From Oscillospiraceae bacterium (lineage in GTDB: Bacteria > Bacillota > Clostridia > Oscillospirales > Oscillospiraceae): 51,992 bases of DNA. This document shows, one piece after another, positions 11,994-12,806 of the stretch; position 1 is the stretch's first letter, and the number at the start of each line of letters is the position of its first letter. The notes beneath the pieces are model-generated. The model saw only the letters and a list, made by a program, of their open reading frames with translations. It did not search any database and was not told the origin of the DNA. The DNA lies in contig JAFSCD010000012.1 in NCBI GenBank assembly GCA_017436955.1, positions 1 to 51,992 on the forward strand, written 5' to 3'. Both the position numbers and the translations under genes were made by a program.

Positions 11994-12009
11994 GCATTTA
12001 TGCAAAAAC

Positions 12010-12027
12010 CGCCGGATTTCTCCGGCG
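12010..12027 (-). terminator. Terminator after the 65-aa protein gene
   Basis: cgccgga/tccggcg stem with a 4-nt loop, followed on the minus strand by GTTTTTGC. It lies about 85 bp past the stop, beyond a small repeat at 12083-12118. Confidence 0.65.
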
Positions 12028-12082
12028 ATTTAAGATGAAATTAAGGATTTATGGCTTCCCCTGCGGAAGCACCGAAGGCTTG

Positions 12083-12118
12083 AATGTAGGGGCGGATGCC
12101 CACATCCGCCCGCTAGGG
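12083..12118. repeat. GTAGGGGCGG-type short palindromic repeat
   Basis: tgtaggggcggatgcccacatccgcc: ggcggatg pairs with catccgcc. Similar GTAGGG(G)CGG units occur at 12640-12806 and 50566-50633. Confidence 0.55.
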
Positions 12119-12310
12119 ATTGTTTTTGAGGCTTTCCAGAAAACGGATCGTTCTTTCAATTTGCGCATCTTCATCCGTATCTTTTTGCACCGAGAAAACA
12201 TTAAGCTCCCATTCAGGGTACAGTACCGCATATCGCCGGATGACCGCATCCAGTATATCTTCGATTATTGCCGCATCTGCTTGTGCAATCTCCTGAAATA
12301 AATCCAACAT
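12113..12310 (-). CDS. 65-aa acidic protein, divergent partner of an RHH protein
   Basis: MLDLFQEIAQADAAIIEDIL then a region rich in aromatic and acidic residues (YAVLYPEWELNVFS). The protein is predicted mainly alpha-helical, with no signal peptide or membrane segment. The start at 12310 has GGGGAGGTGGTAAA upstream and is preferred over the ATG ten codons earlier, which lies in the promoter. I recognise the general look of short conserved Firmicutes hypotheticals, but no function is known to me. It is divergent from a ribbon-helix-helix gene 95 bp away and the promoter overlaps a shared inverted repeat, so regulation by that protein is likely. Confidence 0.75.
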   Translation of the reverse strand: MLDLFQEIAQADAAIIEDILDAVIRRYAVLYPEWELNVFSVQKDTDEDAQIERTIRFLESLKNNP

Positions 12311-12327
12311 TTTACCACCTCCCCAAC

Positions 12328-12388
12328 AATATGATAACACTTTGTTTGTATAAATTCAAGGATTGTGTTGTTATACTGTTATCATATT
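12328..12388. promoter_or_regulatory. Shared operator: 11-bp inverted repeat between divergent small genes
   Basis: aatatgataac at 12328-12338 and gttatcatatt at 12378-12388 are perfect inverted copies with a 39-bp gap. The left copy covers the -10 of the minus-strand promoter and the right copy lies just before the RHH ribosome site. This is the layout expected for an RHH repressor operator. Confidence 0.65.
12331..12359 (-). promoter_or_regulatory. Promoter of the 65-aa protein gene
   Basis: Minus strand TTGAAT (12354-12359), 17-bp spacer, TATCAT (12331-12336). The -10 is embedded in the operator half-site. A plus-strand -10-like TATACT (12372-12377) may serve the RHH gene, without a clear -35. 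Confidence 0.6.
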
Positions 12389-12405
12389 ATTAGCGAGGTG
12401 TTAGT

Positions 12406-12597
12406 ATGGCAACGAACAAAATTCAAACGGGTATCCGTTTTGAGCCGGAGCTTCTATACAAGATTGCGTATGTTGCCAAGTGCAATAAGCGTTCTTTGAA
12501 TGCGCAGTTGGAGTACCTTGCCCAGCTCTGCGTCAAAGAATACGAGGAAGCAAACGGAGAGATTCCGGTGACGGACGAAGATATTTACAAGAAATAA
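12406..12597 (+). CDS. Ribbon-helix-helix (Arc-like) DNA-binding protein
   Basis: A 63-aa protein whose N-terminal part fits the RHH fold: a short beta strand (IQTGIRFEPELL), then two helices (LYKIAYVAKCNKRSLNAQLEYLAQLCVKEYEEA). RHH proteins bind DNA as dimers through the paired strands and are common as toxin-antitoxin autorepressors and phage or plasmid regulators. The acidic tail (EIPVTDEDIYKK) could be a partner-binding region. The ribosome site is gcgaggtg before ATG. A terminator follows at once, so there is no cotranscribed partner on this strand. The divergent 65-aa gene is the obvious candidate partner or target. Confidence 0.85.
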   Translation: MATNKIQTGIRFEPELLYKIAYVAKCNKRSLNAQLEYLAQLCVKEYEEANGEIPVTDEDIYKK

Positions 12598-12601
12598 TCA
12601 A

Positions 12602-12626
12602 AAGCCTGCACTTTTTGTGCAGGCTT
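12602..12626 (+). terminator. Terminator after the RHH gene
   Basis: aagcctgca/tgcaggctt stem followed by ctttatg, directly downstream of the stop codon. Confidence 0.8.
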
Positions 12627-12639
12627 CTTTATGTTCCCG

Positions 12640-12806
12640 GGCGATTCGTGAATCGCCCCTACGGAAGTGCAGAGAGGTTATTGTAGGGGCGGATTTCCAA
12701 TCCGCCTGTTTTTGCGGCGGGACCAAGGCCCCACCTTACGGCAACCGGGGAGCATCACTGTAGGGCGGGGGTTTACTCCCGCCGTGCTTACGGTCGCCCC
12801 TACGAT
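12640..12806. repeat. Cluster of GTAGGGGCG-type short repeats
   Basis: Successive palindromic units: gggcgattcgtgaatcgccc, tgtaggggcggatttccaatccgcc, a ggtgggg-type unit, and gtagggcgggggtttactcccgcc. These are GC-rich hairpins without coding potential, filling the 215-bp gap between the RHH gene and the GNAT gene. Confidence 0.65.

Follow-up and report, generated by a model that had tools for sequence, protein, structure and literature searches.

Very short genes facing away from each other across a common spacer raise the question of whether they constitute a regulatory unit and, if so, which member regulates and which is regulated. Such an arrangement is found in an Oscillospiraceae bacterium (assembly GCA_017436955.1, contig JAFSCD010000012.1), in a stretch of 51,992 nucleotides hereafter called the window. 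Its minus strand carries at 12113..12310 the gene of a 65-aa acidic protein, with GGAGGT 6 nt 5′ of the ATG, and its plus strand at 12406..12597 the gene of a 63-aa protein, RHH1, regarded as an Arc-like ribbon-helix-helix (RHH) protein from weak Arc matches. An earlier note on this DNA described two divergent genes of 63 and 65 codons separated by 95 bp, the partner of the RHH gene being acidic; both ORFs were borne out together with ribosome-binding sites, and a pI of 4.15 agrees with the latter statement. The same note assigned each gene its own terminator, which holds for the RHH gene (intrinsic terminator at 12602..12626 on the plus strand, found by terminator scan, with the hairpin kept in the syntenic relative L037) but not for its counterpart: a scan of 12000-12720 gave no minus-strand terminator-like site 3′ of the 65-aa stop codon, and the hairpin read there from the sequence is a GTAGGGG-type repeat devoid of a T run. 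The proposal that the two genes form a regulatory or addiction pair, bounded by repeats like an inserted cassette, is partly supported by the data presented below.

The 63-aa protein is weakly like Arc, and its RHH identity is predicted from sub-threshold profile matches. Pfam PF03869 (Arc) was matched with E 0.047 and 14 bits, under the curated cut-off of 20.4, the PHROG Arc-like repressor with 0.0012, the best match in PDB was an Arc construct (E 0.036), and NCBIfam gave no match. Relatives at E 0.001 occur in 96 of 200 family genomes, most of them being remote, and 57 loci with 47-86% identity were collected from genome_contigs, all belonging to MAGs of Oscillospiraceae, Clostridia, Eubacteriales and a few others. 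Single-sequence search of viral contigs found none, and a remote relative with 38-40% identity is present in 8 phage records, 6 of which are Brevibacillus phages. The protein is subject to purifying selection, with median dN/dS of 0.07 (17 sequences, 16 pairs with dS 0.1-2).

The spacer contains the perfect 11-bp inverted repeat described previously, aatatgataac (left arm, 12328..12338) and gttatcatatt (right arm, 12378..12388), which are fully complementary and extendable to 32 nt at 81%; none of 30 dinucleotide shuffles of the spacer matched its strongest inverted repeat (15 nt, 1 mismatch). The left arm overlaps the distal half-site TGATAACA (12332-12339) and the -10 element of the 65-aa gene promoter TTGAAT-17-TATCAT (12331..12359, minus strand), which the promoter scan recovered in agreement with the earlier proposal and whose TTTGTTTGTATA..TCAA is conserved across partner types. 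The right arm overlaps the proximal half-site TGTTATCA (12377-12384), located 45 bp (about four turns) from the distal one. Just 5′ of this arm the extended -10 element of the RHH gene, TGTTATACT (12369..12377, plus strand), was read from the sequence; its TATA core is conserved, no good or recognisable -35 element accompanies it, and the scan of 12000-12720 gave no plus-strand promoter-like site. A degenerate third half-site, TGTTAGTA, with 2 mismatches, lies at 12399..12406 between the ribosome site and the start codon of the RHH gene.

Conservation of the repeat was evaluated in 58 distinct upstream regions, comprising the window and RHH relatives with at least 55% identity (those below 55% being left aside), superimposed at the RHH start codon. 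Of the 58, 44 retain the distal and the proximal half-site, allowing up to 1 mismatch, compared to an average of 0.02 in 200 mononucleotide shuffles, the motif having been picked after viewing the sequences and the shuffles ignoring common descent; one or both half-sites are missing in the other 14. At the third position TGTTATCA with at most 1 mismatch is present in 40 of 58 regions, the window not being among them. Repeated half-sites thus occupy the own promoter of the RHH gene in 44/58 regions and follow 11-bp registers in the relatives: the spacing of same-orientation pairs is a multiple of 11 bp in 48 of 62 cases, 32 of these 48 representing one and the same 22-bp spacing. For the 34 regions having exactly the half-site spacing of the window, and hence selected for half-sites, information content is 0.26 bits at -90 to -81 and 1.23 bits at -80 to -71, demarcating a conserved block from about -75 to the RHH start codon and low conservation upstream of -81. 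The consensus is closely similar whatever partner lies opposite (65-aa gene including remnants in 17 regions, HTH in 6, AbrB in 6, other in 5), and for every partner type conservation ends at the outer edge of the distal half-site. It follows that the divergent promoter is part of the RHH block and that partners change beyond the operator edge.

Given this layout, the 63-aa protein would act as an Arc-type RHH repressor whose dimers bind the TGATAACA/TGTTATCA half-sites; since these overlap the divergent -10 element and the start region of the repressor’s own promoter, both genes would be repressed. The 45-bp distance between half-sites and the 11-bp-step copies in several relatives would suit cooperative binding to one face of DNA. 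DNA binding, repression of both promoters and cooperativity are thus all predicted from the sequence.

The partner protein is less easily placed. We designate 65-aa proteins of this type the PDWE family, after the RYxxLFPDWE part of the consensus RYAVLFPDWExSTISLxK obtained by alignment of 16 copies. The protein itself has no match above noise in Pfam, NCBIfam, PHROGs or PADLOC, and scanning of 26 family members against PADLOC yielded two marginal matches. Of 136 genomes of the window’s genus, 33 contain the family, at 35 places in total. Acidity is frequent, with pI below 5.5 in 41 of 51 entries (duplicates included), and some members are basic, for instance L070 with pI 9.0, whose two proteins are identical to those of genome G673 of the genus. 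The 65-aa protein changes faster than RHH (mean difference 0.54 versus 0.20, n 15) and is under purifying selection, as judged from median dN/dS of 0.31 (15 sequences without L038 and L047, 17 pairs, those with dS outside 0.1-2 being left out).

Outside the genus, single-sequence search of 200 family genomes returned, besides the window, one match in G021, which covers part of a 150-aa frame and was considered a chance similarity; nothing besides the window’s own copy was found in 295 order genomes, and nothing in genome_contigs, viral contigs or plasmids. Profile A1 matched 6 of 400 family genomes, three within the genus and three weakly (E 3e-4 to 4e-3); of the weak ones, that in G021 is again the 150-aa frame, that in G132 gave no match on profile rescan, and that in G600 (L095) was rejected as a different 83-aa protein with short similarity. 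Profile A3 matched 3 of 300 family genomes, the only one outside the genus having 4e-4 in a frame with a stop, and 3 of 187 order genomes, the two outside the genus lying in frames 259 and 271 residues long (about 5e-4). In the genomes searched, the family was therefore seen as confined to the genus, which does not amount to proof.

Whether the divergent pairing is maintained can be judged from either side. From the side of the 65-aa gene, counting by geometry, with profiles built from these same partners, places a small DNA-binding ORF head-to-head and no more than 250 bp away in all but one of the 35 genus places. The 34 regulators comprise 18 RHH proteins, 1 remote RHH relative, 6 proteins of a second RHH-like type and 9 HTH proteins. 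All 17 close 65-aa copies of the genus, window included, face RHH, confirming the divergent co-occurrence of the pair. For the 18 remote places the picture is different: RHH appears once (L113) and a remote RHH relative once (L122, Arc just above the Pfam cut-off), and a gene or frame of the second RHH-like or HTH type stands at 16 of 18, namely the second RHH-like type at L093, L112, L116, L117, L119 and L183, HTH at L115, L118, L120, L121, L123 and L184-L187 (the HTH start in L186 being unclear), and at L114, the 35th place, an HTH-like frame with a stop opposite an intact 65-aa gene. The last is a counter-case to the assumption that a regulator always guards the 65-aa gene. Independent Pfam scanning assigned HTH_26 to 7 of 9 scanned HTH partners, HTH_31 to that of L115 and, below the cut-off, HTH_3 to that of L121, while the second RHH-like type had sub-threshold ParD/TacA/HicB matches only. 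Inverted repeats at 16 of these loci, besides the window and L035, beat 30 of 30 shuffles in L093, L115, L121, L183 and L184, are no better than shuffles in L116, L118, L119 and L120, and are intermediate at the remaining ones. Seven further regulator ORFs are found in 65-aa loci. At three loci, L118, L121 and L187, such an ORF belongs to the second RHH-like type and follows the HTH gene, which gives a three-gene version with the 65-aa gene divergent from the HTH gene.

From the side of the RHH gene the pairing is not exclusive, as RHH also faces HTH or AbrB/MazE-like genes. Sorting by eye with Pfam support revealed opposite the 57 RHH genes 16 intact and 3 truncated 65-aa genes (L037, L039 and L040), 14 HTH genes, 9 AbrB/MazE-like genes and 8 other ORFs, 7 loci being without clear ORF (for L081 251 bases upstream are available only). 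At E 0.01, Pfam found HTH_3 in 13 and MazE_antitoxin in 9 of the 23 HTH and AbrB partners. The 26 close copies of the genus (E below 1e-25) comprise 18 with the 65-aa gene, 3 with its remnant, 2 with HTH (the one in G741 recognised by eye only) and 3 without clear partner. The three truncated remnants demonstrate that the RHH gene can lose its 65-aa partner and persist. Mapped on the RHH tree, with remnants counted as 65-aa and the class “other” left out, the three partner labels change 6 times; only 6 of 54 inner branches are well supported, so that repeated partner swapping is suggested rather than shown.

The copies without clear partner (3 of 26) indicate that RHH may serve other purposes, and together with the 15 of 57 loci having miscellaneous ORFs (8) or none (7) they are what might be expected of a local autorepressor residing by chance beside an unimportant small gene. 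This explanation is already disfavoured and appears hardly probable at all, in view of the 17 of 17 close copies facing RHH, the DNA-binding ORF opposite the 65-aa gene at 34 of 35 places and the dN/dS of 0.31. The partner spectrum of 14 HTH and 9 AbrB/MazE-like genes next to 16 intact 65-aa genes may alternatively point to a switch composed of two regulators, whose second slot often holds another DNA-binding protein and is here filled by a non-DNA-binding counterpart, for instance an antirepressor. We regard it as rather unlikely: opposite the remote 65-aa relatives stand HTH proteins or another RHH-like type, a diversity that a single specific antirepressor contact would hardly explain.

Some relatives of RHH occur in other surroundings. 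At ten loci (L010, L011, L013, L014, L019, L022, L024, L025, L028 and L029) remote ones are located directly upstream of a phosphoribosyltransferase ORF, which we take to be ComF-like, with a few-base overlap and GTGCAAATGCAC-type palindromes before several of the RHH genes. At L021, L027 and L031 a remote RHH type stands head-to-head with a conserved protein of ~100 aa and GTACTTAA-type repeats lie in between, that is, the same architecture with a different partner family. L049 (same as L103) has a tandem duplicate of RHH, the second copy with its own conserved operator and no clear divergent partner; L006 contains two RHH genes in tandem, and at L055 the gene opposite RHH looks by eye like a second, different RHH protein.

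The explanation that we prefer, and consider rather probable, is an Arc-type autorepressor with a portable bidirectional promoter-operator, the 65-aa gene being a regulated output which exchanges its regulators. As sequence comparison brings out, the operator and the divergent pairing are conserved and the partners on both sides differ; according to this scheme, repressor, operator and both core promoters would travel as one conserved block, the divergent slot would be exchangeable, and the slot in the window would be occupied by the 65-aa acidic protein. The pair would in this sense be an autorepressed small module with exchangeable partners. Distance matrices of RHH and the 65-aa protein correlate (r 0.66, p 0.0005, n 15), which may reflect shared species history alone. 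As for the product itself, it may be an effector that acts on its regulator, or one whose expression is costly unless regulated. The regulator kept at 34 of 35 places and RHH persisting beside 65-aa remnants fit a product costly when unregulated.

The same asymmetry may be read as a divergent pair of toxin-antitoxin type, with a toxic 65-aa protein and RHH (or HTH) as both repressor and neutraliser. Loss is one-sided (RHH stands three times beside a truncated 65-aa gene, and the regulator ORF is open at 34/35 places), the distribution over 33/136 genus genomes is patchy, and the pair is surrounded by the kinds of DNA-binding domain known from type II antitoxins (HTH, RHH and SpoVT/AbrB), as listed in the parts of PMC4803016 consulted. 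Nevertheless we doubt this possibility. The two genes run in opposite directions, the 65-aa protein matched neither a toxin family nor a PADLOC entry above noise, and L114 combines an intact 65-aa gene with a broken regulator frame. Besides, the slot is occupied as well by HTH and AbrB/MazE-like genes and therefore looks regulatory. The identity of the RHH tail is 0.64 with 65-aa partners, equally 0.64 with AbrB and 0.48 with HTH; this equality, along with the diversity of regulator families, argues against one conserved contact. The tail motif IPV is more uniform beside 65-aa partners than beside others, which could hint at contact and is the sole hint in that direction.

The earlier note suggested that GTAGGGG repeats flank the pair like the ends of a cassette. 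They do flank it: GTAGGGGCGG has only two copies in the window, both intergenic, at 12086-12095 and 12683-12692, with 0.15 expected. The reading as cassette ends, or as a repeat-bounded insertion, found no support, for the 13-mer TGTAGGGGCGGAT has 8 exact copies in the genome, 6 of them away from the pair (0 for the reversed control), and L037 retains the RHH gene with its operator and lacks the repeats. The window and L037 have common neighbours on both sides, presumably MFS, GNAT and DUF2156-like proteins (labels given by eye or recall). In L037 RHH and operator are kept, most of the 65-aa gene is lost, and an ABC-transporter-like ORF adjoins; at the same site in genome G698 (L155) that ORF directly adjoins the GNAT gene, and searches there gave neither an RHH nor a 65-aa match. 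Flanking ORFs at other loci were scanned for 69 of 70 selected ORFs, those longer than 420 aa and some loci being left out; among the 25 of 65 families listed they belong mainly to metabolic and transport families, HTH_3 being represented by three members and a transposase family by one. Thus the comparison of the window, L037 and L155, together with the mainly metabolic flanks, indicates gain and loss of the unit at chromosomal sites, with no obvious mobile element involved. By the same comparative approach, purifying selection acts on both proteins, and the unit is present or absent at one site.

Several known systems share features with this arrangement. In the way regulators are exchanged around a small protein, it comes closest to acr-aca modules, in which a small protein gene is likewise kept beside small autorepressors of several families and inverted repeats lie in the core promoter; homologs of AcrIF17, for instance, are found with Aca5, Aca9 and Aca10 (passages of PMC9410906). 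Unlike the divergent genes described here, acr-aca are co-directional operons in phages and integrated mobile elements; the flanks here are mainly metabolic among the 25 of 65 families listed, and the likeness concerns the exchange of regulators, not anti-CRISPR activity. By sequence, Arc of phage P22 is the nearest solved relative of RHH, albeit a weak one. In P22, Arc and Mnt (immunity I) control the antirepressor gene ant, and the subsites of the Arc operator are 11 bp apart; no ant gene was seen in the locus described here. Autoregulation by Arc is cited in a passage of PMC2629481. Type II toxin-antitoxin systems likewise consist of a pair of small genes with a patchy distribution, a putative RHH or HTH domain being encoded by one of the two; they are unlike it in being co-directional operons, whereas the genes here diverge and matched no known toxin family. 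Repressors at divergent genes are also described for conjugation: according to the passages seen of PMC6540685, the RHH repressor ArtA of plasmid pSK41 is encoded divergently from conjugation genes, and Rco of pLS20 acts at divergent promoters, joining two operators by a DNA loop; both control conjugation operons, whereas here one short gene lies on each side.

Abstract beginnings and some passages covered by a literature search contained nothing recognisable as the 65-aa/RHH pair. A comparative survey of toxin-antitoxin systems, to judge from its part consulted, gathered co-directed neighbours (PMC2701414), a step that divergent pairs would escape. One may tentatively, and with low expectation, go further and imagine a new class of mosaic two-gene unit, combining a portable switch block with an exchangeable slot and a regulator-guarded 65-aa effector, possibly a toxin of a divergent toxin-antitoxin system missed by surveys of co-directed pairs. 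What can be stated for this genus is that a protein family absent from the annotation libraries searched is tied head-to-head to more than one family of DNA-binding proteins. If the 65-aa protein is active, it would offer a testable case of recombination between repressor and cargo at the operator, and would represent a class of gene pairs invisible to operon-based searches for toxin-antitoxin or anti-CRISPR systems.
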